Positions 4,485 through 48,161 of a stretch of 64,000 nt of DNA are shown piece by piece. This stretch comes from Granulosicoccus sp. Its GTDB lineage: Bacteria > Pseudomonadota > Gammaproteobacteria > Granulosicoccales > Granulosicoccaceae. Every line of letters starts with the position of its first letter. The stretch's first letter is position 1. A program made the translations under genes and the position numbers. The stretch is taken from NCBI GenBank assembly GCA_023301795.1, contig JALZVU010000088.1:1-64000 (forward strand), given 5' to 3'. Below the pieces are notes generated by a model. The model had not been told where the DNA came from. It made no database searches and saw nothing but the letters and a program-made list of their open reading frames with translations.

Positions 4485-5525
4485 ATGGTGAAGTTTCTGA
4501 CGTTCACAGGTAAAACAGCCGGTCGCTATTTTGCACTTGCTGCCTTGACAACAACGCTGGTAGCTTGCGGCGGCGGTGGTGGTGGGGATTCCACCGAATT
4601 GGAAAATGGCGACATTGATAGCCTGGACCTGGATGGGGACGGTATACCCAACGGTGAAGACTTTGATGACGACGATGATGGTATCGATGATCTGGCGGAT
4701 CCGTTTGTAGATCGTGATGGGGATGGGTTCGATGACATCATCGGAGCGCAGGATCTGGATCAGGATGGAATCGTGAATAGTGAAGATTTCGATGCCGACG
4801 GTGATTTTCTGGCTGATGCAGATATTGATTTTGATACAGGCGAGAGACTGGACAAGTTCATTGATTTGAACCAGGACGGGTTTGATGATGAATCTGGCCA
4901 GACTGAGGGGCAGAGCATCGGAGTCACCGCCGACATGCCTTGCGGCATTGAAAGCGGTAGCGATTCACAATCGGCCAACAATGAGTGGAACGATAACTGC
5001 TTGGTTCGTCGATCCTCAGCAGGTGGTTTGTTCGCTGACAGTTTGTACGCGGTTGGCGTTCAACGCATTTCGTGGTGTGCAGGTTTTGATGGCACGATAC
5101 CCGCGGACACCGTGGCAGATTTTGCTGAAGGCGAGTTTGGGCCCAGTTCAGAGGCATCGTTGAAGGCGTTTCAACTAGCTACCTCTATTCCTAACAGTGA
5201 GCCATTGCCAGCAGGTGATGAACCCTTTGCCATGCTGGTTGATGATGGCCAAGTGGGTCCGCAGACGTGGGCGAAATTGCGTAAAGCGATTACACGATTG
5301 ACTCTAGCTGAATTCGATGTCAACGATTCAGTCGATACAGTAGGGTTTGACACGTACGGGTTTGCGGCTGGTCGTTGTGCTGATATCCCCTTGTTTTATC
5401 AAGCGTTGACCTTGCAGGAAGACGGTATTAATGTTGATCTGCTAGGTTGGAGACTGGCCAGAAATCCACCAAACTCAGGCGACAGCGTGCCATTTTCTAT
5501 CGACGCACCGTTTAACCGTTTGTAG
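4485..5525 (+). CDS. Lipoprotein with calcium-type Asp repeats and a peptidoglycan-binding domain
   Basis: The protein has 346 residues. A signal peptide ends in a lipobox (LVAC, Cys about residue 28) followed by a run of glycines. Residues about 35-135 are a chain of Asp-rich repeats (DLDGDGIPNGEDFDDD, DRDGDGFDD, DLDQDGIVNSEDFD) of the thrombospondin-type-3/EF-hand-like calcium-binding kind. The C-terminal half contains a PG_binding_1-like segment (YAVGVQRISWCAGF ... DGQVGPQTWAKLR). It is therefore probably a membrane-anchored, Ca-stiffened stalk that touches peptidoglycan. It heads the co-directional block that runs to 15847. The exact role is unknown. Confidence 0.75.
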   Translation: MVKFLTFTGKTAGRYFALAALTTTLVACGGGGGGDSTELENGDIDSLDLDGDGIPNGEDFDDDDDGIDDLADPFVDRDGDGFDDIIGAQDLDQDGIVNSEDFDADGDFLADADIDFDTGERLDKFIDLNQDGFDDESGQTEGQSIGVTADMPCGIESGSDSQSANNEWNDNCLVRRSSAGGLFADSLYAVGVQRISWCAGFDGTIPADTVADFAEGEFGPSSEASLKAFQLATSIPNSEPLPAGDEPFAMLVDDGQVGPQTWAKLRKAITRLTLAEFDVNDSVDTVGFDTYGFAAGRCADIPLFYQALTLQEDGINVDLLGWRLARNPPNSGDSVPFSIDAPFNRL

Positions 5526-5545
5526 CCCTTCGTATGTGAGCTTAA

Positions 5546-5572
5546 GCTGGCATTGAGTTTTTCAATGCCAGC
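5546..5572 (+). terminator. Perfect 11-bp hairpin between the lipoprotein and HEAT-repeat genes
   Basis: GCTGGCATTGA (5546-5556) pairs perfectly with TCAATGCCAGC (5562-5572) around a 5-base loop, 20 bases after the lipoprotein stop. No T-run follows, so it may be a Rho-assisted end, an attenuator or a 3'-end stabiliser. It also buries the ATG at 5565, which argues for the downstream ATG at 5598 as the start of the next gene. Confidence 0.5.
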
Positions 5573-5597
5573 CTTGCACAATGAAAGACAAGAAATT

Positions 5598-6620
5598 ATG
5601 AAAGCTGTTGCTGTAAGCGCTTGTGTGGCAGCTATTATCGGCGGCCTAGCTTACTGGCAGCTGTTCATTAATTCGCCAACCGATACGTTTGCTGATCAGG
5701 CTTCGGTCAAGACCCCGTCAGGTACCGAGGGGGTCGCAGGACATGCTGGAATCCTGCAAGAATCACTTTCGCCCTTTGCGGTTGCCAATACCGACGTGTC
5801 ATCAGCTCAAGCGCTGAAAGCAGAGGGACACGATGCAGCCGCCGACAACCAGCAAGCAGCTCCGACATTGCAAGGCAATGCACAGCTTCCCGACTGGGGA
5901 GCACCCCTCGGTGAAGCCCAATTGTCCATTCTGGTAGAACGACTACGCTTGGACCCTGCGCTCTTGCAACAGCTGATGGACGAATTCAGGCAAGAGAATG
6001 ACCCTACCCGTAAAGCCTTACTTGCCAGTGTGCTGGGTGAGGTTGGGGGCGATGAAGTTACCCTGCTGGCTAGTGAATTGATCTTCTCTGGCAGTGCCTC
6101 TGAACGCTCTGTTGGTTTGAACCTGCTACAGGCGGTTCAACCTGGCAACGCGTCTGCTCGCGATATTGTGTCTAGCATGCTGTCCACCGAAGTGGAACCT
6201 GATGTTCTTACGCAGACCTTGACGGTATTAGCGCGCCCCGGTGATGTGGACGAGGCCAGTCGAGCGTATCTGGCTGATCAGGTGGCCTGGCTAACAACGC
6301 ATGAGGATGTCAACGTGCGTGGAATGAGTCTGGATGTTCTGTCCAGATGGAGTCGTGAGGGGCAGCACACAGATGTATTTGTGCGCGCTCTGGATGATGA
6401 GTCTGCCAACGTACGCGCATCAGCGGCCTACGCCCTGGTGGGGCAAGATGTCCAATCCACAGAGCTTGTTGACCGGCTGTTCACGGTGTTAGAAGATACC
6501 GAGGAACGTGCAAGTGTGAAGAGCGCGGCAACCCTTGCACTGAATTCTCTAGCCCTTTCACCGACGCAACAGGCTCGGTTGGACGCTCTAGTGAAGGCCC
6601 GTAATACAGCTACCCGCTGA
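5598..6620 (+). CDS. Membrane-anchored HEAT-repeat protein
   Basis: The protein has 340 residues. It begins with an uncleaved-looking membrane helix (VAVSACVAAIIGGLAYWQL), continues with a low-complexity linker to about residue 105, and ends in about 200 residues of helical HEAT/armadillo-like repeats. Conserved repeat turns read VNVRGMSLDVLSRW and ANVRASAAYALV, and the closing repeat is DTEERASVKSAATLALNSL. Such solenoids bind other proteins; the domain should face the periplasm. ATG 5598 was chosen because the membrane helix begins right after it and the earlier ATG 5565 and TTG 5553 lie inside the hairpin stem. It lies between two envelope-protein genes in the same direction. No specific function can be given. 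Confidence 0.65.
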   Translation: MKAVAVSACVAAIIGGLAYWQLFINSPTDTFADQASVKTPSGTEGVAGHAGILQESLSPFAVANTDVSSAQALKAEGHDAAADNQQAAPTLQGNAQLPDWGAPLGEAQLSILVERLRLDPALLQQLMDEFRQENDPTRKALLASVLGEVGGDEVTLLASELIFSGSASERSVGLNLLQAVQPGNASARDIVSSMLSTEVEPDVLTQTLTVLARPGDVDEASRAYLADQVAWLTTHEDVNVRGMSLDVLSRWSREGQHTDVFVRALDDESANVRASAAYALVGQDVQSTELVDRLFTVLEDTEERASVKSAATLALNSLALSPTQQARLDALVKARNTATR

Positions 6621-6746
6621 GCGCGCATGAATGTGAGCGGTACGGATGGGTTGGCCGCTACTGCGTAGCGGCGTGTTCACATGGCGTACTAGTTGCACCG
6701 CTTGCACATACTGCAATTGCTATGGCCCTGCCAATACACCGCCACG

Positions 6747-8639
6747 ATGTCTTCGCCTGCGCTCGACACCTTGCTCCCCCAATCCGAACCTGTCCCTGCA
6801 GGATCGGATGAGCCGATCCTGAGACCAACACGTTGTGATGATGGTTGTTACGCGTGGCTAGCCTGGCTGCACAGGTTACTTTCAGGTGATGCATTGCAGC
6901 TCTATCGAACTGATTTGTGCGACGGCAAAGTGCATCTGAGTCATATCGGCTCATTGCCTGAGAATCAGGCGCCGCCTCGCACCGCGATTAAAGCGCTTGT
7001 GCTGCGAGCTGCCAGATGCGGCTCCGTGGTGCGCGCCAAAAATGCAACGAAAAGCGATCACTGTGTGGTTTGTATTCCCGATACTGCGCATGACGCCCAG
7101 CCTTCTTCCCGTTATGTTCTTGTCATAGAACGATCCGGTAGTTCAAAGCTTGATGTCCAGACGCAGTCCAGATTGGTCACCTGGGCGTTCGCAGCCATTG
7201 TGAAATTTACCGCTACATCTGTAACCACATTTGCACCGACAACTGTATCCACAACAACATCCAGAGTGCCTGAAGCAACACTCTCTCAATGGAGTCTTGA
7301 GCAGTTGGATCGTCAGGGAAGTTTGAATGATAGGTTCGCGCAGCTGATGCAGACGCTGGCCGAGTTGTCGTTCAGTCAGCGCTGTCTGGTCGTGAAGCTT
7401 AAGCTACGGGGCGAGCATATTCGAGGCTCTGTACTCATGGCGATATCTGGACAAGCTCGTGTCGATAACCGTCTGGCGATGCCTGGTGCATTGGCGCGCA
7501 GTGTGGAGAAAATCTATCAGGGGCAAAAACGCTTGTCTATCCGTTGTGAAGATTCAGTCGCGCCCTATGGTCGTGAGCATGAGTGTGCTTCGGGTCTGCC
7601 AATATTATGCTCACGCCTGGTGATACCCGTGCACGTCGAGTCAGATTGCTACGTGGTTTTGCTGGAGCGTGCGGTTGACCAGCCATTCACTGGCGCAGAG
7701 CAGGCAGACATTGGACATGAACTCAATACTGCAGTACAGGTGCTTGTACTTCGTGATCTGGCAACACAGGGAATTGCTTGTGTTATCAAGCGTCGACTAA
7801 ATGATTGCCGTGAAGGATTCAGAGCACAGCGCACTCGTAACGTTACGGCGGGTGCGGCACTGATTCTTGCATTGTCTTTGCTGTTGTATCCTGTGGAGCA
7901 TCGGGTCACTGCTCCGTTGAGCGTTGAAGCAGCTGAACGCTATGTTTTAATCGCACCGATCGATGGCTTTGTGCGCTCCGTGCGAGTCAAGGCGGGCGAT
8001 GTAGTTGCAAAAGATCAGATCATAGCGGCTTTGGATGATCTGGACTTGCAGCTTCAATGGCAGCAACGCCAGAGTGAGCAAATGCAGAACAGTCAAGCCT
8101 ACGCAAAGGCACTGGCGACCCGAAACAGGGTGGAGGTGACTCGTCTCAAAGAGCGCGCGCGGCTCCTGCAGGCGGAGTTGTCTCAGTTGCAGATGCAAAG
8201 AGATAGGCTCGTGCTAAGAGCGCCGGTATCAGGTGTGGTTCTGAGTGGAGCACTGGATGATTTTCTGGGTGCTGCGGTCAGTGCAGGAGATACGCTGTTC
8301 AGTATCGGTTCAAATACTTCACACCGTTTGGTTTTAGAGGTATCCGAATACGACGTAAACAGTGTTAAGCCAGGTCAGCCAGTGGGAATACGTCTGTCTG
8401 CTGATCCCTCCATTGTGCTTGAGGCAACCGTAACCACCATCATGCCGCTTGCCACACTGGTTAATGGTGTGAACAGTGTTCAGGTACACGCAGTGTTGAA
8501 TAACGATGCACAGCTCAGACCCGGAATGGAGGGGCTTGGGAAAATTTTGTTGGGCACGCGCAGCAGATTGAATCAGTGGCGATTACGTATTGGTGCACGG
8601 TTGATTTGGTTGGGTTGGAAGTTGGGTGTTATCCGGTGA
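6747..8639 (+). CDS. GAF-domain HlyD-type membrane fusion (periplasmic adaptor) protein
   Basis: The protein has 630 residues. The N-terminal 360 residues are cytoplasmic in character and include a GAF-like region (about 165-345). One membrane helix follows (about 364-385, TAGAALILALSLLLYP), then a HlyD-type adaptor: lipoyl half-motifs (IDGFVRSVRVKAGDVV ... RAPVSGVVLSGAL) flank a coiled coil (about 430-490), and a beta-barrel lies near the end. HlyD adaptors bridge inner-membrane exporters to outer-membrane channels. A cytosolic GAF sensor on such a protein is unusual. The stop overlaps the GTG of the next gene (GTGA), so the pair is made together. ATG 6747 was preferred to an upstream TTG at 6693; neither has a strong ribosome site. 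Confidence 0.75.
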   Translation: MSSPALDTLLPQSEPVPAGSDEPILRPTRCDDGCYAWLAWLHRLLSGDALQLYRTDLCDGKVHLSHIGSLPENQAPPRTAIKALVLRAARCGSVVRAKNATKSDHCVVCIPDTAHDAQPSSRYVLVIERSGSSKLDVQTQSRLVTWAFAAIVKFTATSVTTFAPTTVSTTTSRVPEATLSQWSLEQLDRQGSLNDRFAQLMQTLAELSFSQRCLVVKLKLRGEHIRGSVLMAISGQARVDNRLAMPGALARSVEKIYQGQKRLSIRCEDSVAPYGREHECASGLPILCSRLVIPVHVESDCYVVLLERAVDQPFTGAEQADIGHELNTAVQVLVLRDLATQGIACVIKRRLNDCREGFRAQRTRNVTAGAALILALSLLLYPVEHRVTAPLSVEAAERYVLIAPIDGFVRSVRVKAGDVVAKDQIIAALDDLDLQLQWQQRQSEQMQNSQAYAKALATRNRVEVTRLKERARLLQAELSQLQMQRDRLVLRAPVSGVVLSGALDDFLGAAVSAGDTLFSIGSNTSHRLVLEVSEYDVNSVKPGQPVGIRLSADPSIVLEATVTTIMPLATLVNGVNSVQVHAVLNNDAQLRPGMEGLGKILLGTRSRLNQWRLRIGARLIWLGWKLGVIR

Positions 8640-10750
8640 GTGATGAAGGCTTGCGATCATTGCTAAGCGCTCAGCCATGTTTCAACAGTGACTGCACCAC
8701 CACCTACAGTGATATCCGTGGTGAAGCGTGGATAATCATCAAGAATCCATTAACGGGTGCCCATGTCAGAATTTTCCGCGATCTTTGGCTTCATCTGTGT
8801 CGACTGGATGGCAATGTTACTCTACAGAGATGGATAGAGCCGCTTGCACAGCGCTATGGTGAGCAGCGCCTTTTATCGATGGTCGTTCAGCTAAAACGCC
8901 AAGGCATGTTGATATTTCCAGGATCTGCGCAGCTGAGTGAGAAATCAGATAAATCAGTGGGTGCAGCTTTGTTCTCTCGCTACAATCCGTTGATGTTACG
9001 GGTTGCTTTGTTCAACCCTACGAAGCTGCTTGATAGCTTTTGCAAGCTGCCCTTGATATTGCCGCTTAAGTGGTTGCTTGTAGCGGTTGGGTTGCTCGTG
9101 GCAATGGCGTTATTGTCATTGATTTTAAGCGGGGGGAAGTTGGTAACGTTTTGGCAGGCGTATTCTCAAAATATGCAAATATGGCACTTTGTGTTGTTGT
9201 TCCCATTGACCAAATGCTTGCATGAACTGGCCCACGGTTGGGTGCTTCGTTACTTTGGAGGTGATGCGCCTGAGGCTGGGATATCATTCATCGTGCTTTT
9301 CCCCATGCCTTATGTCGATGCAACTGATGCGTGGAGTTTGCCGAGGCGCAATAGAATGCTGGTTACCGGTGCCGGAATGGCCGTAGATTTTTTGCTGGCT
9401 TGTGTTGGTATCGTGTTGTGGGCGCATCTGGCTCCGGGGGCGATTGCCAGTATGGGATTTACGCTGGCCCTTATGGGGGTGGTGTCAATATTTGTTTTTA
9501 ACGCCAATCCTCTACTTAAATTCGACGGGTATTACTTACTTGAGGACGCACTGGATAGTCCAGGTCTTGCAAGGCGCTCGCATTCGTATATGCGCTACAT
9601 TGTTAAGCGATATGTGTTTTTGCTAAACCACAGCGTGCCGCCGCCGGTTGCGCCTGGTGAACGAGCGTGGTTAGTTGTCTATGCGGTTTCAAGTTGTGTC
9701 TATCGATTCGTTTTGGCCGCCATTATTAGTGTCTATCTGATTAGCACCTTGCATGAGCTGGGTATTGTATTGTCGTTGTTTTCATTGATACCGTTGTGTG
9801 TTTTGCCACTGCTTCGATTTGCCAGGTTTCTGTCATTCTCGAAGGAGCTCAATAATTCACGACTAAGAGCTGTGTCCGTATTGAGTGTGATCGCGCTATG
9901 TTGTACAGGTTTCATATTCAGTGTACCGGTGCCATCATCGACACGCACGCAGGGAATCGTCTGGGTGGATGAGCAAGCGCAGGTCTATGCATCGCAATCT
10001 GGCACCATCGATCAGCTGATGGTTGCTAGCGGCGATGTTGTAAAAAAGGGCGAGCCGATCATGGCGCTTGGCTCGGATGGGCTTGACATTGATCTGGAGC
10101 GACAGCGAGCAGCAGTACGTCTGGCTCAACTTGTCGTCGAGCAATACCGTCAGAGCGATCCCGCCCGGGCGCAAGCTGAGCGCATCGTTTTGGATCAGGC
10201 TGAATATGAAGTGCAAAACGCCATCCGCCAATTACAACAACTTACGATGGTTGCGTCTGTATCTGGACGAGTGGTGCTTGCAGGTGATCACCTTGCGCCA
10301 GGGGCGTTGGTCTCGCAAGGCGATCTGCTGGCGTATGTTGTTAACGACAAAGATCGTGTGGTTCGAGCGGTGGTTCCCCAGAAGGCCATGGGGCAAGTTG
10401 ATACTGGAGTGATTCGAGCACATGTTCGACTCGCCCAGAATCTTCAAGAGAGAATACCGGCGCGTATCACTCGTCAAACTCCTGCAGGGAGCCATCAACT
10501 ACCCAGTAGTGCTCTAGCGAACACCGGCTTCGGTGGATTTGATATGGCCCTGTCTACAGCTCAGACATCTACGCGAACCGCTCACAAAGTGTTTCATGTA
10601 GAACTTGAGCTGTTCGAGTTAGTTGGGCAACTGAGCTCTATTGCCATGGGTACAAAGGCATTTGTAACGCTTGAGCATAGCGCTGAACCATTGGGGCGTC
10701 GATGGCTTCGTATCTCACGGCAACTACTGCTTAAGCACTTGAGTGTCTAG
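8636..10750 (+). CDS. PqqD-M50-HlyD membrane protein (site-2-protease-like)
   Basis: The protein has 704 residues. It has a PqqD-like winged segment (about 20-95, with WIIIKNPLTGAHVRIF and LDGNVTL) and a multi-pass M50 peptidase domain. Metal site HELAH is at 196-200 and NPLLKFDGYY supplies N291 and D297, so the zinc-protease residues are intact. After further helices a C-terminal HlyD-like part follows, with two lipoyl half-motifs (SGTIDQLMVASGDVVKKG; SVSGRVVLAGDHL) around a short coiled coil. Proteins of this build occur beside adaptor proteins in many bacteria, but their substrate is not established. The GTG start at 8636 overlaps the previous stop; an in-frame GTG at 8576 is possible. It could cleave or export a peptide or an exported protein; which of these is open. 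Confidence 0.75.
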   Translation: MSDEGLRSLLSAQPCFNSDCTTTYSDIRGEAWIIIKNPLTGAHVRIFRDLWLHLCRLDGNVTLQRWIEPLAQRYGEQRLLSMVVQLKRQGMLIFPGSAQLSEKSDKSVGAALFSRYNPLMLRVALFNPTKLLDSFCKLPLILPLKWLLVAVGLLVAMALLSLILSGGKLVTFWQAYSQNMQIWHFVLLFPLTKCLHELAHGWVLRYFGGDAPEAGISFIVLFPMPYVDATDAWSLPRRNRMLVTGAGMAVDFLLACVGIVLWAHLAPGAIASMGFTLALMGVVSIFVFNANPLLKFDGYYLLEDALDSPGLARRSHSYMRYIVKRYVFLLNHSVPPPVAPGERAWLVVYAVSSCVYRFVLAAIISVYLISTLHELGIVLSLFSLIPLCVLPLLRFARFLSFSKELNNSRLRAVSVLSVIALCCTGFIFSVPVPSSTRTQGIVWVDEQAQVYASQSGTIDQLMVASGDVVKKGEPIMALGSDGLDIDLERQRAAVRLAQLVVEQYRQSDPARAQAERIVLDQAEYEVQNAIRQLQQLTMVASVSGRVVLAGDHLAPGALVSQGDLLAYVVNDKDRVVRAVVPQKAMGQVDTGVIRAHVRLAQNLQERIPARITRQTPAGSHQLPSSALANTGFGGFDMALSTAQTSTRTAHKVFHVELELFELVGQLSSIAMGTKAFVTLEHSAEPLGRRWLRISRQLLLKHLSV

Positions 10751-11022
10751 TCAGACGTGGTGGTGAGTGCTTGTTAATGGTCGATATTTATTGAGCCGTT
10801 ACCTCTATTGCCGAGATAAGCGAACTTCGGATCTGTATTTGCAAGCTATTGACAAAATGTAAAAGTAACTTAACCCTGCTTTATGAAAATCTCCCGGCCA
10901 AATGGCTCTCGGTCGATATGTGCAAGATCATGTGAGAGCAACTATCGCGACAAGTTTCATCAGTCGGTGGGCGTCATCCGTGCTACGCAGATGAGCGCCG
11001 CCTGTGGCATGGGTAACATGGC

Positions 11023-14000
11023 ATGAGCGTTCCGGCAGATGCAGTTTCGCTAGACCAGGAATCAGCTACTACCTCTTTGCATGGCAAGAAATTTCTATCG
11101 CGCCTTCATCTGCCGCAACTAACAGCGCGTTTTCATATCGTGATCGGACTGACGTCTCTGGTGAGCACCAGCACGTTACTTGCCATTTTTCTCGGACTTG
11201 TTCCTGACACCCGTTCAAGTGAACAGGCATCGCGTGTGGTGTTGGCCGAAACCATGACCACACTGGGCTCAGCACTGCTACGCAATGGGGAGACTGCCGG
11301 GCTTCGCTATTCGCTTGAGTTCTTAGTGGCGCAAAATCCGGATATCCATGCGGTCAGGCTCAACCGTCGTGGCGGTGGTGAATATCAATTTTTATCGGAT
11401 CAGGCGCGTGCTGAGAAGGGTTTTGCACAAGGCGTACTCACCGACGACATCAGCGTGCCGATACTTCAGCGCAATCGGCCATGGGGTGAGCTTGTAGTGC
11501 AGTTTGTATCGACACGCAACTTGCCTTGGTACACACGATATCTGAATACGCGATGGTCACTTATAGCGCTGATGTCGGCATTTTGTTTTCCGATGTTCTA
11601 TTTGTTTTTGGGCAAAGTGCTCAAAGAGCTAAATCCTTCGGCGGCGGTGCCTTCGCGCGTGCGTTCGGCACTGGATACCATTGCCGCTGCACTGCTGGTA
11701 TTAGATGTTCGAGGTAATATCGTGCTGGCAAATGCTGCGTTCCTTGAACTCACGGGTAAAACCATGGAGCAGTTGCTGGGGCAGCCTGCCAGCAGACTGT
11801 CATGGGAAGGTGATTCAGGACCTGTCTGGGAGGAGTCTTTATATGAGGCCAAGCCTACCCGTCACAATAAGATACGTTTTAACGATGTGCACGGTAGGGT
11901 CAAGAGCTTTATCGTTAACTGTTCGCCAGTGATGACAGCCGACGATACGATCGGTGGCGTGCTAGTGAGTATGGATGATGTAACGCAGTTGGAAGAGCAG
12001 GAGGTACTGCTCCGCAAGTCAATGGAGCTAGCGGAGGAGGCCAACAGTGCGAAGAGTATCTTTCTGTCCAATATGAGTCATGAGATTCGCACGCCAATGA
12101 CTGCAATACTGGGTTTTACCGAGGTTATGAAACGCGGTAAGCACCAGACCGAGTCAGAGCGTCTTGATTATCTCAACACGATTGCCAATAGCGGACAACA
12201 CTTGCTTGAACTAATCAATGATGTTCTGGATCTGTCGAAAGTGGAATCAGGTGCAATGGATGTCGAATGGATGCCTTGCAACTGCGCCGTGATTGCGAAT
12301 GATGTAGTGCGTGTTCTTAAGTCGAAAGCAGATGAAAAAGCTATCGGAATAGAGCTTGTTTTTAACACCTCTCTTCCAGATCAGATACAGAGCGATCCGA
12401 GTAGGTTGCGCCAGGTGATAACCAACCTGCTAGGCAATGCCATCAAGTTTACTGACAATGGATCTGTCAGCGTCCATTTGTCTATGCAAATGGACCCCGA
12501 TGGAGCACCCCCCTTATTGCACATTGATGTCGTGGACAGCGGTATCGGCATGTCGGCTGATCAGCAGTCCAGAATATTTGATGCCTTTGCACAGGCGGAT
12601 ACCTCTATTGCCAGACGGTTTGGTGGTACTGGGCTTGGCTTATCCATAAGTCGTCAACTAACGGAGGCGATGGGTGGTGAGTTAAGTGTCAGCAGTGTCG
12701 AGGGGCAAGGTAGTACGTTTCGAATCTGTTTGCCATTTAACACTGAGGACTATGAGTTGTGTTCAGCCGAACAGATAAAAGGAACTCTTGCGGCACCTGT
12801 TCAGGCGCAGCACCTCGAGTGGGATATCGATAGCGCACGTGTTCTGGTTGTGGATGACGGGCCTGAAAATCGCCAACTAATGTCTATTCTTCTTGGGGAT
12901 TTAGGGCTTGACGTGTCACTTGCCACAAATGGGCTTGAAGGTGTGGAGAGTCTGTTTGGTGCTGGCAACGACTCAGCATTCGATGTGGTATTCATGGATA
13001 TACAGATGCCTGTCATGGACGGTTATCAGGCTGTTGCACAGATGCGTGAACGAGGTGCCAGCTTGCCAGTTGTTGCGTTAACCGCCAATGCCATGAAGGG
13101 ATTCGAGAAGGCAGTGCTGGATGCTGGATTTTCTCACTATATGGCAAAGCCCATTGATATAAACAGATTGTGTGAGTTATTAGCAGAGCTTGTAGGGGGG
13201 GAGTCTCGGGAAATCACTGTAGAGCCTGTTGTAGACATAGCGCCAATACCGTCGCAAGTCAGTGATGTAACCTCATCTGAGCGAATCACCTCGGCGCAAC
13301 ACACAGAGCTGTTCAGCACGCTTGCTATGGCCGATAGTCGATTTGTCCCGATTGTCGCTGAGTTTAAAGAGCGGCTTGGGGTGCGGCTTGAGGAGTTTCA
13401 CTGCGCAGTTCAGAATGATGACTGGCGTAAGTTGGGTGATCTGGGACATTGGCTCAGAGGCTCATCTGCAAGTGTTGGGCTTGATGCGTTAGTCGAACCA
13501 AGCGCCGCCTTGGAGTCTGCAGCCCTTGCCTCTGACAAGCTACGGTGCACAGAGGCTGTTCAGACGATATGCGCCATGCAGCCACAGATCGTTGCAGATG
13601 CATCGCAGCCTGTCCCTGAGACTCTAGACGCCTCGTTACAACGGCCCGAACAGAGCACCCAGACCACTAAAGAGCGTGTAGACGAGGAGCCGGTGTATTC
13701 AACCCTGCCGGTCGACGTGTTTGAATTCCATGAGGTGGTCGGCCTTTTTATTGATCGCCTCGGTGAGCAGATGCACTCCTTGCGAGTTGCGATCGATATG
13801 CTGGATAGCGACGAGGCGTGTGAGCTTATTCATTGGTTGAGGGGCTCAGGAGGTAACGTAGGCTTTGGTGAGTATTCTTCGTTGTGTAACAGCTTGGAAC
13901 TCAGCCTTCTGGAATCTTTGCCGTCAATAAACAAAGATATGTCAGCAATTGAATCATTTAATCGTCGTGTTATAGCCGGTTGGGCGAATACACCTGTTCC

Positions 14001-14028
14001 TGATAAGGGCGATGGATCACCGTGCTGA
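11023..14028 (+). CDS. Hybrid sensor histidine kinase with receiver and two HPt domains
   Basis: The protein has 1001 residues. Order: membrane helix (about 38-60), periplasmic sensor (about 60-165), second helix (about 175-198), PAS (about 210-330), HisKA with H353 (MSHEIRTPMTAILGF), HATPase_c with the N box (NLLGNAIKFTDNG) and G boxes (DSGIGMS, GGTGLGLS), receiver with phospho-Asp D659 (VFMDIQMPVMDGY), HPt1 with H809 (HWLRGSSASVG) and HPt2 with H937 (HWLRGSGGNVGFG). The phosphorelay would pass H353 to D659 to an HPt, then to a separate regulator, most likely the REC-GGDEF-EAL protein encoded 76 bases downstream. The 272 bases upstream contain a lone TTGACA (10849) but no convincing -10, so the promoter is undefined. 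Confidence 0.92.
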   Translation: MSVPADAVSLDQESATTSLHGKKFLSRLHLPQLTARFHIVIGLTSLVSTSTLLAIFLGLVPDTRSSEQASRVVLAETMTTLGSALLRNGETAGLRYSLEFLVAQNPDIHAVRLNRRGGGEYQFLSDQARAEKGFAQGVLTDDISVPILQRNRPWGELVVQFVSTRNLPWYTRYLNTRWSLIALMSAFCFPMFYLFLGKVLKELNPSAAVPSRVRSALDTIAAALLVLDVRGNIVLANAAFLELTGKTMEQLLGQPASRLSWEGDSGPVWEESLYEAKPTRHNKIRFNDVHGRVKSFIVNCSPVMTADDTIGGVLVSMDDVTQLEEQEVLLRKSMELAEEANSAKSIFLSNMSHEIRTPMTAILGFTEVMKRGKHQTESERLDYLNTIANSGQHLLELINDVLDLSKVESGAMDVEWMPCNCAVIANDVVRVLKSKADEKAIGIELVFNTSLPDQIQSDPSRLRQVITNLLGNAIKFTDNGSVSVHLSMQMDPDGAPPLLHIDVVDSGIGMSADQQSRIFDAFAQADTSIARRFGGTGLGLSISRQLTEAMGGELSVSSVEGQGSTFRICLPFNTEDYELCSAEQIKGTLAAPVQAQHLEWDIDSARVLVVDDGPENRQLMSILLGDLGLDVSLATNGLEGVESLFGAGNDSAFDVVFMDIQMPVMDGYQAVAQMRERGASLPVVALTANAMKGFEKAVLDAGFSHYMAKPIDINRLCELLAELVGGESREITVEPVVDIAPIPSQVSDVTSSERITSAQHTELFSTLAMADSRFVPIVAEFKERLGVRLEEFHCAVQNDDWRKLGDLGHWLRGSSASVGLDALVEPSAALESAALASDKLRCTEAVQTICAMQPQIVADASQPVPETLDASLQRPEQSTQTTKERVDEEPVYSTLPVDVFEFHEVVGLFIDRLGEQMHSLRVAIDMLDSDEACELIHWLRGSGGNVGFGEYSSLCNSLELSLLESLPSINKDMSAIESFNRRVIAGWANTPVPDKGDGSPC

Positions 14029-14104
14029 TCGATAACCGACGATGACTCGTGCGCAGATGACATTGCGAAAGTGTTTGAACCAGGAGGACCAAAGTTCCTG
14101 CCTC

Positions 14105-15847
14105 ATGAGCCGCTCCAAGGTCATGATGGTCGATGATGAGCCGATCAACATGCGGGTGCTGCAGTTGCACCTCACAACTGAGGGCTACAGCCAGTTCGTT
14201 ATCGTGAGTGATTCAACAACGGCTATGCGAGTGCTGCGGGCTGAAATGCCTAATGTATTGTTGCTGGATTTGAATATGCCGATGGTATCGGGACTAGAAA
14301 TACTCGAGCAGATCCGGGCAGATGATGAGCTCAAGCAGTTGCCTGTTATTGTCCTGACCTCATCCAATAATGATCGAAGCAAATTGCAAGCGTTAGAGCT
14401 TGGTGCCAACGATTTCCTGTCCAAACCCGTGGACCCCAGTGAGTTGGCTCTACGAATGCGCAATACGTTGATGGCCCGTGTATACGAGCAACAGCTTATG
14501 CACGTTGATGTGCTGACGAATCTGCCAAACCGTTTGTTCTTCGTAGACTACATGCGTGAGTTCAAACATAACTTGCACAAAGGTGACGATGAGTTCCGCG
14601 TGCTGGTGCTGATAAATCTGCACAGATTCAAGTCGATCAACGACAGCTTTGGTTCGGACCGTGGAGACGATGTGCTGTGGGCATTCAGTCAACGTTTACG
14701 TACTGCATTTGACTGCTCAGATGAAGAGCGTGAATGTGATGGCAGGATGACTCGTCAAGAGACGAAGGTCATCAGACTGGGTGGTGACAGGTTCGGTGTG
14801 ATCGTTGACGCCTGTGAAGAGCCTGAGAATAATGCCTATCTACGTCGGTGTATTGATGCGTTGCTGGACTCATTGAAGGAGCCATTCAAACTCGATTCTC
14901 AGAAAATATTTCTGAGTGTGGGAATTGGTATTTCGATGTTTTCCGAGCAATCCCAGAGTGTCGAGGCTTTGATCAATCACGCTGAAACAGCCATGAACAA
15001 TGTGAGTGTCAGCGGAGGTAGGCCCTACGCGTTTTACAGCGTTGATATGGTCAAAGGTGCGCGGCGTTTGCTGGCTATTGATAACGCGATGCGCACGGCC
15101 ATTGATGATCGGGGTTTGTATCTGAACTATCAACCGAAAATGGATGTCGATTCCGGACAGATTAAAGGAGCGGAGGCTCTACTACGCTGGCAACATCCCG
15201 AGCTTGGCTTGGTCTCGCCAGAAGAGTTCATCCCTGTCGCTGAATCCACAGGTTTGATCGTCCCTATTGGCCTGTGGGTGCTGGAGCAAGCGTGTATGCA
15301 AGCAGCTTTGTTCCGAAAGAGCGTGTATGCGCAGTTTCACATCGCCGTTAATGTGTCTATTGCGCAGCTTTATTCGGCCGAGTTTATTGATGACGTCAAG
15401 CGTGTCCTGAAAACCACTGGACTTCCCAGTCACGCACTGACTCTCGAGCTGACTGAAAATATGATCATGGAAGATGTTGACAGTAATATTGCAAAATTGT
15501 CTGCTCTACGAGATCTCGGTATCGGTATTTCCATTGATGATTTTGGCACCGGTTATTCATCACTGAGTTACTTGCAACGATTCCCCATCAACCAGTTGAA
15601 GATTGATCGCTCGTTTGTTATGCAGATCGAATCAGCTGATGCCTGTGCACCTATCGTCAAGGCTATCATTACGTTGGCTCAGGATCTTGGGTATAGCGTT
15701 GTGGCAGAGGGTGTAGAGACTCCCGAGCAGCTTGCGTACATTCGCAGCCTGACCTGTGGTGAGTATCAGGGTTTCTATAAAAGTCGTCCAATCAGCGCAG
15801 AACAGTTTGAGCAATTGTTGCGCGGTGATCAGGCAAACGCGGCTTGA
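14105..15847 (+). CDS. Response regulator with REC, degenerate GGDEF and EAL domains (c-di-GMP phosphodiesterase)
   Basis: The protein has 580 residues. Receiver domain about 4-120 with phospho-acceptor D55 (LLLDLNMPMVSG). GGDEF domain about 130-310, in which the signature reads GGDRF (226-230), so the active-site Glu is Arg and cyclase activity is unlikely. EAL domain about 330-575 is intact: EALLRW (E357), LELTENMIMED, IDDFGTGYSSL, LKIDRSF, VAEGVET and QGFYKSRP. The protein should therefore hydrolyse c-di-GMP under control of the phosphorelay just upstream. An in-frame ATG at 14042 would add 21 residues; ATG 14105 was chosen because the receiver fold starts there, though AGGAGG at 14082 lies rather far away. 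Confidence 0.9.
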   Translation: MSRSKVMMVDDEPINMRVLQLHLTTEGYSQFVIVSDSTTAMRVLRAEMPNVLLLDLNMPMVSGLEILEQIRADDELKQLPVIVLTSSNNDRSKLQALELGANDFLSKPVDPSELALRMRNTLMARVYEQQLMHVDVLTNLPNRLFFVDYMREFKHNLHKGDDEFRVLVLINLHRFKSINDSFGSDRGDDVLWAFSQRLRTAFDCSDEERECDGRMTRQETKVIRLGGDRFGVIVDACEEPENNAYLRRCIDALLDSLKEPFKLDSQKIFLSVGIGISMFSEQSQSVEALINHAETAMNNVSVSGGRPYAFYSVDMVKGARRLLAIDNAMRTAIDDRGLYLNYQPKMDVDSGQIKGAEALLRWQHPELGLVSPEEFIPVAESTGLIVPIGLWVLEQACMQAALFRKSVYAQFHIAVNVSIAQLYSAEFIDDVKRVLKTTGLPSHALTLELTENMIMEDVDSNIAKLSALRDLGIGISIDDFGTGYSSLSYLQRFPINQLKIDRSFVMQIESADACAPIVKAIITLAQDLGYSVVAEGVETPEQLAYIRSLTCGEYQGFYKSRPISAEQFEQLLRGDQANAA

Positions 15848-23917: not shown

Positions 23918-26125
23918 ATGACTATTAACGACAACGATGTACTTGATACACCTGTGGCAGCCGGCCATAACGAACCACTAGCGCCTTTTGCGCAGGACGC
24001 TGCAGCGCTCGGGCAGATGCTGGTGACCAAGACAACGCTTCTCGATGGGGGGACACCCGAAGGCAAGCGTGAAGAGATCTTGCATTACTTTCATCAAAGC
24101 TTCTCTTTATACGAATCACTGTTTGAATGCCTTGCAAGCGATGAGGCCTATTACCAGAGGGCTAGTCCGCTTCGCCACCCGTTGATTTTCTATTACGGGC
24201 ATACCGCCGTATTTTTTATCAATAAATTGAATGTCGCCAATCTTATTGATGAGCGTATTGATCCTGCGCTTGAGTCCTCTCTGGCAATCGGTGTTGATGA
24301 AATGTCATGGGACGATTTGAATGACAAGCACTACGACTGGCCTACACCTGCGGTTGTAAAAGACTATCGCGACAAGACTCGTGCTTTGGTGGATAACTAC
24401 ATCAGAACGTGTGATTTAAGCTTGCCGATAAAGTGGAACGATCCCATGTGGATCATCATGATGGGCATCGAGCATGAGAGGATCCATCTGGAAACCTCAT
24501 CAGTGCTGATGAGGGAGTTACCGCTCGACTCGGTGCAACCTCACAAGCTGTGGGGGAACATTTGCAAGGACACAGATACCGCTCCTGTTAATGAATTGTT
24601 ACCGGTAAAAGGTGGATCGGTTGTTGTGGGTAAGTCAAAGGATGACCCAATTTACGGCTGGGATGTCGAGTATGGTGAGGAGACGTTTGAAGTTGCTGAC
24701 TATAACGCCAGTAAGTATCTGGTCAGTAATGGTGAGTTCATGGAGTTTATCGAAGCTGGTGGGTACAGCACACGCAAGTACTGGACAGATGAGGGTTGGG
24801 GTTGGATTCAATACCGCAAGGCGCAAATGCCGGTCTTCTGGCGTCATGATGGAAGCCAGTACCTGTATCGCACCATGCTTGAAGAAATTGCTATGCCGTG
24901 GAATTGGCCAGCTGATCTGACTTATCTTGAATCCAAGGCATTTTGTGAGTGGAAGTCTGCACAAACAGGCAAAAGTTTGCGCCTGCCTACCGAAGCCGAA
25001 TGGCATCGTTTGAGGGAGAACGTAGATACCGACCAACCCTTCTGGAGTAACGCGCCAGGCAATATCAATCTTGAGTACGACATGTCGTCCTGCCCGGTTA
25101 ATCGCCATGAGTGCCAAGGTGGTTTTTTCGATATTATTGGTAACGTGTGGCAGTGGACCGAAACACCGGTTGATGGTTTGGCAGGTTATGAGGTTCATCC
25201 GGCGTACGATGACTTTTCTACACCCACGTTCGACGGTAAGCACAATATCTTTAAAGGCGGTTGCTGGATTTCAACAGGAAACTATGCAATCAAAAGTTCG
25301 CGTTATGCCTTCAGACGGCATTTCTATCAACACTCCGGAATGCGCTACGTCGAAGCCGGACCTCTACCGGAAGTAAAGATGAATATTTACGAGATGGACG
25401 ATGCGGTGTCGCAATACATCGAATTTCACTACGGTGATGAATACTTCGGTGTTCCCAACTTCCCGGTGGCGTGTATTGAGCATTGCATGTCGGTGGCCTC
25501 TGAGCTGCCTCGAGCTAAGGCACTGGATCTTGGTTGCGCGACGGGCCGCTCAAGCTTTGAGCTGGCCAGGCACTTTGACCATGTTGATGCGCTTGACTTT
25601 TCGGCACGTCTTATTAATGCGCCCTCGCAGCTTCAATCGTCTGGCACGCAGCGATACGCCATTCAGGATGAGGGTGATCTTGTTACCTACAAGGAAGTGA
25701 CGCTTGCCGGACTCGGCTACGAAGGGGTAAAAGACAAGGTGAATTTCATGCAGGGAGATGCGTGTAACTTACCGGAAAAATTCACCGGCTATGATCTTGT
25801 GTTCGCTGGCAACCTGATTGACCGATTGTATGATCCCAGCGGGTTTATCGAGCTGATCAAGACCCGTATCAATGCGGGTGGCATTCTGGCGATTTCATCG
25901 CCTTACACGTGGCTGGAAGATTTCACCGAGAAGGACAAATGGCTGGGCGGATTCAAAGCAGATACTGGCGAGAACTTCACAACGCTTGAAGGGCTGGCGC
26001 AGGCGTTATTGCCAGAATTCACGGCCATCGCACCTCCTGTCGATGTGCCCTTTGTGATTCGCGAGACTCGCCGCAAGCATCAGCACACGGTTGCGGAATT
26101 ATCGTTCTGGAAAAAACGTGATTAG
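23918..26125 (+). CDS. ovoA: 5-histidylcysteine sulfoxide synthase / 4-mercaptohistidine N1-methyltransferase (ovothiol synthesis)
   Basis: The 735-residue protein matches full-length OvoA. The N-terminal DinB-like helical domain holds the iron motif H186-x3-H190-x-E192 (HERIHLE). A formylglycine-enzyme-type sulfatase-modifying domain follows (about 230-460; LRLPTEAEWHRL, GNVWQWTETPV, RYAFRRHFYQHSGMRYVE). A class I SAM methyltransferase domain forms the C-terminus (about 520-735; ALDLGCATGRSSFELARHF). It joins cysteine to histidine carbon 5 with oxygen and methylates the product, giving the antioxidant ovothiol A after C-S cleavage. The separate lyase gene is not adjacent. It stands alone between priA and argS, with 261 bases upstream and 167 downstream. 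Confidence 0.93.
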   Translation: MTINDNDVLDTPVAAGHNEPLAPFAQDAAALGQMLVTKTTLLDGGTPEGKREEILHYFHQSFSLYESLFECLASDEAYYQRASPLRHPLIFYYGHTAVFFINKLNVANLIDERIDPALESSLAIGVDEMSWDDLNDKHYDWPTPAVVKDYRDKTRALVDNYIRTCDLSLPIKWNDPMWIIMMGIEHERIHLETSSVLMRELPLDSVQPHKLWGNICKDTDTAPVNELLPVKGGSVVVGKSKDDPIYGWDVEYGEETFEVADYNASKYLVSNGEFMEFIEAGGYSTRKYWTDEGWGWIQYRKAQMPVFWRHDGSQYLYRTMLEEIAMPWNWPADLTYLESKAFCEWKSAQTGKSLRLPTEAEWHRLRENVDTDQPFWSNAPGNINLEYDMSSCPVNRHECQGGFFDIIGNVWQWTETPVDGLAGYEVHPAYDDFSTPTFDGKHNIFKGGCWISTGNYAIKSSRYAFRRHFYQHSGMRYVEAGPLPEVKMNIYEMDDAVSQYIEFHYGDEYFGVPNFPVACIEHCMSVASELPRAKALDLGCATGRSSFELARHFDHVDALDFSARLINAPSQLQSSGTQRYAIQDEGDLVTYKEVTLAGLGYEGVKDKVNFMQGDACNLPEKFTGYDLVFAGNLIDRLYDPSGFIELIKTRINAGGILAISSPYTWLEDFTEKDKWLGGFKADTGENFTTLEGLAQALLPEFTAIAPPVDVPFVIRETRRKHQHTVAELSFWKKRD

Positions 26126-28959: not shown

Positions 28960-29655
28960 ATGAAGAAGCGGCAGGTGCAAGGCGTTGCGGGGCAGGTCTT
29001 GCACATCACACAACGATGTTACGAACAGAAGTTTCTGCTCAATGCGGAAACAGATCGACGGCGATGGCTATATTGGTTGTATCAGGCCAGGCGGCGCTTT
29101 GACATTAGCGTATTGAACTACGTCGTCACCTCAAACCATGTGCATATTCTGATTCAAGACCATAGCGGTGGCTCGGTAGCCGGCGTTATGGACATGATTA
29201 ACCAGCGCACAAACGCAGAATTAAACCGGAATCGACGCTGTGCGCTCTGGGCCCCCGGGTTCCAGACTACCGCTGTTCAGACAAACGAGCACCTTGCGCG
29301 TTGCATGGCCTATATCGATACCAATATGGTCCGTGCTGCTGTAGTGGCCCACCCTGTGGATTGGCGCTGCGGTGGTTACTACGAGTCGTTGTACCCCAAA
29401 GCGCGTGGCGGGCGGATCGATCACAGCAGCTTGCGTAAGCTGTTGCAATTCAAAACAAGCAAAGCCCTGCAGGCGGCTCGGGATCAATGGATTGACGTCA
29501 GATTGAACCAGGCTACGATGGTGCGTGAGCCCTACTGGAGCGACAGTATTGCAGTGGGTGACTTAGGCTTTGCGCTAAAAATGAAGCGATTCCTCGCGTA
29601 TGCCGATCCAGGGCGACGAGCTCAGCGTGAACGCGGGTGTTTCGCGGTTCGATAG
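28960..29655 (+). CDS. REP-associated tyrosine transposase (RAYT, Y1_Tnp)
   Basis: The 231-residue protein is a single-domain HUH nuclease of the IS200/IS605 relatives that are domesticated with REP palindromes. The HUH motif is SNHVHILIQ and the catalytic Tyr lies in CMAYIDTNMVRAAVV, with the Asn-x-Val-Arg-Ala context typical of RAYTs. A strong AAGGAGGG precedes the ATG. Inverted repeats lie on both sides (28910-28933 and 29721-29747). It is present once here, without terminal repeats of an insertion sequence, so it is better seen as a resident gene than a mobile copy. Confidence 0.85.
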   Translation: MKKRQVQGVAGQVLHITQRCYEQKFLLNAETDRRRWLYWLYQARRRFDISVLNYVVTSNHVHILIQDHSGGSVAGVMDMINQRTNAELNRNRRCALWAPGFQTTAVQTNEHLARCMAYIDTNMVRAAVVAHPVDWRCGGYYESLYPKARGGRIDHSSLRKLLQFKTSKALQAARDQWIDVRLNQATMVREPYWSDSIAVGDLGFALKMKRFLAYADPGRRAQRERGCFAVR

Positions 29656-46460: not shown

Positions 46461-48161
46461 ATGGCTATCAAAGCAGATAAATGGATCCGGCGCATGTCTG
46501 AAGAGCACGGCATGATCGAGCCCTTCGAGGCAGGTCAGATCCGTGTAGACAGTGACAATCAGAAAATCGTCTCCTATGGCACTTCAAGCTATGGATATGA
46601 CGTGCGCTGCGCGGATGAATTCAAGATATTTACCAATATCAACAATTCTATTGTTGATCCCAAGAGCTTTGATCCCAACAGCTTTGTCGATCTTAAATCC
46701 GACACCTGCATCATCCCGCCCAACTCGTTTGCACTGGCTCGTACCGTCGAATACTTCCGGATTCCCCGCAGTGTCTTGACGGTTTGCCTTGGAAAGAGCA
46801 CTTATGCACGTTGTTTTTCAGCGGATACTAAAGTGGCTCTGGCTGACGGGCGATCGTTGAGCCTTGAACAAATGGCCACAGGCGCTTCTGAAGGCGAGCG
46901 CTTCTATGGATACGGCGTTGGCCAGTTCGGTAAGGTGATTGTTCAGGAATTGGAAGCACCGCGCCTAGTAGGACAAGATTCGCTTGTTGAAGTGGAACTC
47001 GATAATGGCGAGGTCATAAGAGCCACGCCAGATCATGAATTTCTTATGCGTGATGGAACGATGTGTCCAGCAGCTGAGCTTATGGCGGAAAGTTCTTTGA
47101 TGCCGCTGTATCGCACGTTACGCCGCGGTTACGAGATGACTTTTCAGCCGTTAACCGGGTACATGTATCCCACCCATCGTATGGCTGATGAATGGAATCT
47201 GCGCCACGGTGCTTACGACGATGTGCCGGACACGCACCGACATCACATTGATCATTGCCGAACCAATAATTCTCCGTTCAATATCATGCGAATGGATGCC
47301 AGCGAACACATCAGCATGCACAACGCCATTAGTTTTGGTGAGGGGTTTGACCGACAAGAGCACGGTTTAAGCATCAGGCAGTCACTTTCGGAGCTGCGCA
47401 AGAACGACAAGTGGTATGCAAACTACCGGAAGCAGCAATCAATGCGTGCTCAAAAATTCTGGCACGCTGATGAATACGCCACGACCAGAGCAGCGTTGAA
47501 CGAAAAACAGCTTGCTCGGTGGACTGCAGATGAGCGGGAGCATCAGAGCGCAAGACTGGCGAGCTTCTGGGATGGTAATGAGCAGGCTCGTCAGGAGCGT
47601 TCTGAATTTTCTCGTAACGTCTGGGCTAAGGCGCCTGAATCCAGGCGTCTGGCGCAGGCAGAGCACGCGCGTAATCTCAAGATTCGCCATGATATCGATG
47701 CGGTAGCAGTGCGATCGGCTCTGGATAAAACCGGCAGCATTCGAGGGGCAGCACGTGAGCTGGGTGTGGATCGATCCGTGTTTCGACGCTTTCCTCAAGT
47801 GCTGAGTGCATTTCGTGGCGAGCCTGTTGCAAACCATAAGGTGGTCAGTGTGAGAACAGTGTCTGGCTCACATGATGTTTACTGCCTCACGGCACCAGAG
47901 ACTGGAAACTTTGCATTAGAAGCTGGCGTTTTCGTCTCCAACTGCGGCATTATCGTAAACGTAACGCCCCTGGAGCCCGAGTGGGAGGGCCATGTAACGC
48001 TGGAATTCTCCAACACCACACCGCTACCGGCGAAAATCTACGCCAACGAGGGAATAGCGCAGATGCTGTTCTTCGAAAGTGATGAGATATGCGACACGTC
48101 GTATGCAGACAGAGGCGGCAAGTATCAGGGCCAGAAGGGCGTAACGTTGCCTCGTACCTAA
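46461..48161 (+). CDS. dcd: dCTP deaminase precursor interrupted by an intein
   Basis: One continuous frame of 566 codons encodes Dcd residues 1-117, a 377-residue intein (precursor residues 118-494) and Dcd residues 118-189 (precursor 495-566). The two exteins join exactly to the gammaproteobacterial Dcd sequence: LGKSTYAR + [16 protein letters not shown]. Dcd converts dCTP to dUTP and ammonia, feeding dTMP synthesis. Active-site Ser113 and Arg117 lie before the junction and Glu138 (VTLEFSN, spliced numbering) after it, so the unspliced protein should be inactive and function depends on splicing. Length after removal is 189, normal for the family. No frame breaks were seen. Confidence 0.95.
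46812..47942 (+). mobile_element. Intein with HNH homing-endonuclease region inside dcd
   Basis: The first residue is Cys ([13 protein letters not shown], block A). Block B is [19 protein letters not shown] with T72 and H75. The end is [19 protein letters not shown] then VSN, followed by Cys +1 of the C-extein. Between them are an HNH-like segment (intein residues about 142-170, [17 protein letters not shown] ... EHISMH; 47235-47321), Trp/Glu-spaced repeats (about 205-290) and a helix-turn-helix (about 296-330, [18 protein letters not shown]). This is a class 1-like layout with C1 and N377. The penultimate residue is Ser instead of the usual His. The element has 1131 bases, an exact multiple of three. 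Confidence 0.93.

Follow-up and report, generated by a model that had tools for sequence, protein, structure and literature searches.

The 64,000-nucleotide stretch analyzed here (the window; positions 1 to 64,000 of contig JALZVU010000088.1 of Granulosicoccus sp., assembly GCA_023301795.1) encodes on its forward strand two HlyD-type adaptor fusions, one with GAF-like domains and the other with a PqqD-like domain and an M50 site-2 protease, followed by a hybrid kinase and a cyclic di-GMP (c-di-GMP) response regulator. Sequence comparison with related genomes suggests, with a probability that we put at about 0.5, that positions 6747-15847 represent a cargo-less, shortened version of an operon found alongside giant tagged proteins, and that it most likely has as its substrate a tagged giant encoded elsewhere in the genome. 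The original prediction had placed six co-directional genes at 4485-15847, and all six open reading frames (ORFs) were found on one strand. The four that would make up the reduced copy are the GAF-HlyD adaptor (ORF 6693-8639, with a better start at ATG 6747 giving 630 amino acids (aa)), the M50 protein (ORF 8576-10750, better start GTG 8639, 703 aa), the hybrid kinase (11023-14028) and a REC-GGDEF-EAL response regulator (14042-15847).

A recurrent locus linked to giant tagged proteins

Strong relatives of the M50 protein, defined as matches with E below 1e-20 and coverage of the M50 region, were found in 36 of the 274 genomes sampled from the class, and the family is present in 43 of the 48 genomes of the order. 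The adaptor/M50 pair clearly recurs in other genomes; its absence from them would have counted against the original prediction. Across many families the M50 relatives lie among HlyD genes, genes for a SecA-like ATPase (SecA_DEAD, 2.2e-75) and giant proteins, and the recurrent locus consists of a GAF-HlyD adaptor, a PqqD/RRE-M50-HlyD protein, often a SecA-like ATPase, a third, small HlyD protein and a giant, followed by a sensor that has c-di-GMP as its output. The giants carry cadherin, Ig-like, RTX or DUF4347 domains and start with a short N-terminal tag, LExRxLLSAD, which corresponds to the NCBIfam entry LEPR-XLL. LEPR-XLL was detected in 19 of the 274 genomes, and 17 of these 19 are M50-positive, compared with 36 M50-positive genomes among all 274 (Fisher 2.7e-15, uncorrected for kinship). 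In a 40-row, mainly Granulosicoccales clade of the M50 tree the SecA-like gene is absent nearby, yet tagged giants are linked at several loci, indicating that the ATPase is dispensable for the association.

The original prediction had envisaged a dedicated export or proteolysis machine for a peptide or surface protein under local c-di-GMP control. The giants, SecA-like ATPase, third adaptor and sensor/EAL genes of the relatives argue for the surface-protein version of this idea; a peptide cargo finds no such backing, the cargo-like proteins being tagged giants. In line with its remark that no exporter is encoded between the two adaptors, the block contains no gene for an ABC, RND, MFS or TolC protein. 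The pair might nonetheless consist of ordinary efflux adaptors that dock on a distant ABC, RND or MFS exporter, since the adaptor halves of both fusion proteins resemble MacA, AcrA and EmrA by fold (Z 13-17) and TolC-family genes are present elsewhere in the window genome. We consider this improbable, because no such exporter is a recurrent neighbour in the relatives, whereas the SecA-like ATPase, the third HlyD protein and the giants are, and because we know of no role in efflux for an M50 protease with a PqqD-like domain.

A distant M50 clade is accompanied by giants whose tags are variants, LEPRMMFDGA and LEERVVLDAA among them. The distant-clade giants at five loci (L060, L061, L062, L063 and L192) show a looser tag, LExRxxxDxA, and several members of the clade have TolC-family genes alongside. 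One of these loci, L192 (G293:C1:3395000-3414900), contains an 8745-aa DUF4347 open frame with the variant tag LEARIMLDGA beside a distant M50/HlyD set that lacks a SecA-like gene.

The window copy and its substrate

Compared with the full operon, the window copy keeps the adaptor/M50 pair and the sensor/c-di-GMP genes and lacks the SecA-like ATPase, the third HlyD protein and a linked giant. No LExRxLLSAD giant was found among the window ORFs, and the 272-bp gap between the M50 and kinase genes (10751-11022, +), where relatives carry the SecA-like ATPase, the third HlyD protein and/or a tagged giant, contains no ORF of note. The window copy belongs, in the M50 tree, to a seven-species clade (lineage A; support 100) that lies inside a 20-row clade (Shimodaira-Hasegawa-like approximate likelihood ratio test, SH-aLRT, 98), nearly all members of which have the same kinase and usually also the same REC-EAL gene. 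The gene order in lineage B is HlyD, M50, third HlyD, kinase and REC-EAL, and at L124, within the 20-row clade, HlyD, M50 and third HlyD are followed by a 1792-aa LEPR protein and then the same kinase; L035 and L142 served as further comparison loci for the gap. From the orders in lineage B and L124 we infer that the window clade carries an operon from which the middle was removed, the third HlyD gene being absent from all seven lineage-A loci.

With three components missing relative to the full operon, the block might be a decaying, functionless remnant of a duplicated giant-protein operon. This is highly improbable: seven species keep the block with intact motifs, and the ratio of nonsynonymous to synonymous substitution rates (dN/dS) of the adaptor/M50 pair is 0.10-0.21 in close lineage-A pairs (rough values, as dS is near or above 1), which points to purifying selection.

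Two fuller copies are present in the window genome. The first (HlyD, M50, SecA-like, HlyD and a tagged LEPR/DUF4347 giant) is divided between C222, which carries the SecA-like gene, and C17, which carries the giant, the two being joined only by a common SecA end of 30 residues that is 97% identical; the second, on C263, consists of HlyD, M50, HlyD and a tagged LEPR/DUF4347 giant. Precedents for cargo encoded in trans come from two other genomes. In G305 (97% complete) the sole M50 locus is cargo-less and the sole tagged giant lies elsewhere. The complete genome G293 has seven M50 loci, L192 being one, and seven tagged giants, of which two loci and two giants are unlinked, and one of the two unlinked loci is the orthologue of the window locus. 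Three M50 loci and three tagged giants are found in each of G315 and G316. Tagged giants that are unlinked also occur in four genomes that carry a window orthologue (G293, G315, G316 and G317).

Several observations weigh against a tagged giant as the substrate or against the association as a whole. The window genome has three M50 loci but two tagged proteins, each of which is linked to one of the fuller copies, and G297 has two M50 loci but one clear tag; spare cargo is not visible in either draft. Within the class sample, G076 and G213 carry LEPR-XLL giants and gave no M50 match, and 19 M50-positive genomes gave no LEPR-XLL match, though some giants bear variant tags of the LEPRMMFDGA kind. 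The window assembly (97% complete, 313 contigs) may lack a third tagged giant; alternatively, the copy may have a different substrate.

The main rival is that the reduced copy has been repurposed, so that the M50 protein performs regulated intramembrane proteolysis of an untagged envelope or membrane substrate with the kinase/EAL pair as the signalling arm. The lack of visible spare tagged cargo in the window genome and G297 agrees with this idea, as do the missing third HlyD of lineage A, the intact catalytic motifs and the intact selection. However, the HlyD halves and the PqqD-like domain (with the majority of its conserved columns) are retained, beyond the needs of a plain signalling protease, and the four genomes with window orthologues also encode unlinked tagged giants. 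We thus regard repurposing as unlikely, although it is the strongest alternative, and favour, with a chance of roughly one half, action in trans on a tagged giant.

Directly upstream of the pair are the genes for an Asp-rich repeat lipoprotein (4485-5525, +) and a membrane-anchored HEAT-repeat protein (5553-6620, +), which are neighbours and no more than candidate members of the machine. The repeats of the former were seen by eye, its match to PG_binding_1 (3e-4) being weak and below cut-off, and the latter matches Pfam HEAT at 1.2e-10. Given their position and their presence in six of the seven lineage-A loci, the lipoprotein might be the dedicated substrate and the HEAT protein a periplasmic helper. 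Such roles appear improbable: L108, whose M50 protein is 49% identical, lacks both genes yet keeps the pair and the kinase/EAL genes, lineage B lacks both as well, the che genes and hemH/pntA show the same six-of-seven conservation, and the lipoprotein has a Sec lipobox (LVAC). The lipoprotein was rejected as cargo on the grounds of L108 and this general synteny. Since both genes are kept beside the pair only where the che-to-hemH/pntA region is syntenic, they are not callable as parts of the machine.

Domain architecture, c-di-GMP output and flanking genes

The M50 protein comprises a PqqD/RRE-like domain (about 8678-8908, +), an M50 site-2 protease domain (about 8996-9853, +) and an HlyD adaptor half (about 9926-10699, +), the last of these being called by Pfam. 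Its zinc-site motifs, originally described as intact, are both present in the sequence, HELAH at 9221-9235 (+) and NPLLKFDG within the second M50 motif NANPLLKFDG at 9500-9529 (+), and the protein thereby shows the HExxH and NPxxxxDG signatures in membrane helices that define an M50 site-2 protease. Alignment of the family revealed that HExxH is conserved in 76 of 77 members and that, in the second motif, the D and the first N are invariant (77/77). Pfam M50 fell below cut-off for the window protein alone and matched 52 of 53 aligned family members. When the AlphaFold model (predicted local distance difference test score, pLDDT, 89) was compared as a whole chain with Foldseek and VIA, HlyD matches filled the lists; the lack of site-2 protease rows in them carries no weight, and the site-2 protease and PqqD domains were assessed by profiles.

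Pfam PqqD was not called on the window sequence alone and matched 15 of the 53 family members. In the model, the N-terminal region has strands at residues 20-46 followed by helices at 47-87, which is the PqqD order, and a profile of this region built from 40 members and compared with the PDB ranked PqqD first (3g2b, 1.7e-5), followed by 5sxy (a PqqC/D fusion, 0.011) and the RRE-type TfuB1 (0.056). Profiles and model together indicate that the N-terminal domain has the PqqD/RRE fold, with leader-peptide binding as its predicted function. A check for decay of this domain in the window lineage gave no grounds to claim relaxation; the domain evolves fast in all groups and retains the majority of its conserved columns.

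The GAF-HlyD adaptor consists of a tandem GAF-like region (about 6840-7781, +), a transmembrane helix (about 7830-7886, +) and an HlyD/MacA-like part (about 7890-8564, +; Pfam HlyD_D23, 1.2e-17). Its AlphaFold model (pLDDT 85.8) resembles MacA with Z 16-17 upon structure comparison, and the second GAF-like domain (residues about 171-343 of the modelled adaptor) matched solved GAF domains with Z about 12. Pfam GAF was not called in the window adaptor itself and matched 20 of the 44 members of the adaptor family.

The kinase is composed of a periplasmic sensor between two transmembrane helices, followed by PAS, HisKA, HATPase, REC and two Hpt domains (HisKA, HATPase, REC and Hpt being Pfam matches), and its orthologues adjoin the adaptor/M50 pair in lineages A and B. 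The sensor module (11101-11730, +), comprising the transmembrane helix, periplasmic domain, second transmembrane helix and a conserved linker (LKELNPS-VP-RVRSALDT), was found by HHalign to be common to the sensor-PAS-GGDEF-EAL proteins of sister loci, with an E value of 1.6e-49 against their N-terminus and of 4e-33 without the linker. In these sister loci the sensor is fused directly to GGDEF-EAL, the sensor-PAS-GGDEF-EAL protein replacing the kinase plus REC-EAL; some members of the sensor family match sCache_4, weakly. The sensor occurs in 13 of the 274 genomes of the class, all 13 of which are positive for the M50 family, and 15 of its 17 copies lie next to the machine or to a giant, the remaining two being situated at contig ends. 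This close tie to M50 genomes and loci is what most strongly supports c-di-GMP control as part of the machine, as opposed to a chance neighbour. In the last gene (14042-15847, +), in which Pfam calls REC, GGDEF and EAL, the GGDEF motif reads GGDRF and the EAL motifs are intact; the GGDEF domain is likely an inactive cyclase, and the combination of a degenerate GGDRF with an intact EAL domain suggests that the protein is probably a receiver-controlled c-di-GMP phosphodiesterase. The domain calls of the original prediction (two HlyD-type halves, a hybrid kinase and a c-di-GMP regulator) hold in this analysis, with four refinements: the tandem GAF-like region, the GTG 8639 start, the full phosphorelay architecture of the kinase, and the degenerate GGDRF alongside the intact EAL.

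Genes for MCP (methyl-accepting chemotaxis protein), CheB, CheR and CheX lie upstream of 4485 in the same direction as the six-gene block, and position 4485 is therefore not a natural border of the co-directional run. Promoter and terminator scans yielded sites no more numerous than in shuffled sequence. Elsewhere in the window, and all on the forward strand, are a DinB-FGE-methyltransferase fusion of the OvoA/EgtB type (23918-26125), likely of an ovothiol or ergothioneine pathway, a single Y1 (IS200-like, REP-associated) transposase gene (28960-29655), a dCTP deaminase interrupted by an intein (46461-48161; DCD 1.4e-28, Intein_splicing 2.9e-12), and a lipoprotein with four Big_1 (invasin/intimin-type Ig) domains (51428-53488) in which no LExR tag was seen.

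Proposed mechanism and known systems

Leader-peptide binding is characteristic of PqqD/RRE domains, and intramembrane cleavage of M50 proteins; HlyD adaptors provide the connection to TolC channels, and EAL domains break down c-di-GMP. Building on these activities, we tentatively propose, as a plausible scheme that we hold short of probable, an undescribed secretion system for giant surface proteins, in which a domain of the type found with ribosomally synthesized and post-translationally modified peptides (RiPPs), fused to M50 and HlyD parts, would read LExRxLLSAD, and of which the window would hold a trans-acting, cargo-less copy. Either SecA/SecYEG or the SecA-like ATPase would bring the tagged giant into the inner membrane. 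Its N-terminal tag would be bound by the PqqD/RRE-like domain by analogy with a RiPP leader and cleaved or released at the M50 site, and the HlyD halves would act as a conduit across the periplasm to a TolC-type channel. Export may be gated through local c-di-GMP by the GAF domains together with the periplasmic sensor, phosphorelay and EAL protein. We tentatively assign tag reading to the PqqD-like domain/M50-HlyD part because the tag persists in clades that lack the SecA-like gene.

Bacterial LEPR-XLL/DUF4347 proteins that are thousands of residues long turn up commonly among sequenced genes, and we found no description of their export route. A Vibrio genome paper mentions an LEPR-XLL protein of about 8000 aa with RTX domains (PMC10868602). 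No paper describing the combined locus was found, only incidental mentions, in a literature search that covers few subscription journals; the parts are known, and the combined locus is apparently undescribed. The conserved locus offers a testable machine, made up of a tag with its putative reader domain, a protease, a conduit and a motor, plus control by c-di-GMP, and the window copy, reduced to protease/adaptor plus control, would show that these parts are separable from cargo and motor.

The closest known counterparts are the LEPR-XLL (NCBIfam NF012209)/DUF4347 (PF14252) giant loci, two of which are in the window genome; they encode the same HlyD/M50 proteins, sensor and c-di-GMP module, whereas the window copy lacks the giant, the SecA-like ATPase and the third HlyD protein, and the family entries give no mechanism. 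With type I secretion and tripartite efflux systems (HlyD, MacA, AcrA, EmrA) both window fusion proteins have the adaptor fold in common, but a local ABC, RND or MFS component is absent and the adaptors are fused to GAF and to M50 domains. The PqqD-like plus M50 region aligns over about 370 residues with the daptide metalloprotease model NF041824 (3.3e-39; residues 51-419 of the longer ORF), a likeness to the daptide and epipeptide (YydH/LiaK) M50 proteases. However, its score of 135.1 bits against a curated cut-off of 300 is too low for assignment to the daptide metalloproteases, it has an HlyD half, and the linked partners of its relatives are giants, not peptides. Lastly, the LapD/LapG/LapA system offers a parallel in concept, as c-di-GMP there governs the proteolysis of giant surface adhesins, but LapD and a LapG-type cysteine protease are absent from the six window proteins by Pfam, and an intramembrane zinc protease and a phosphorelay are present instead.

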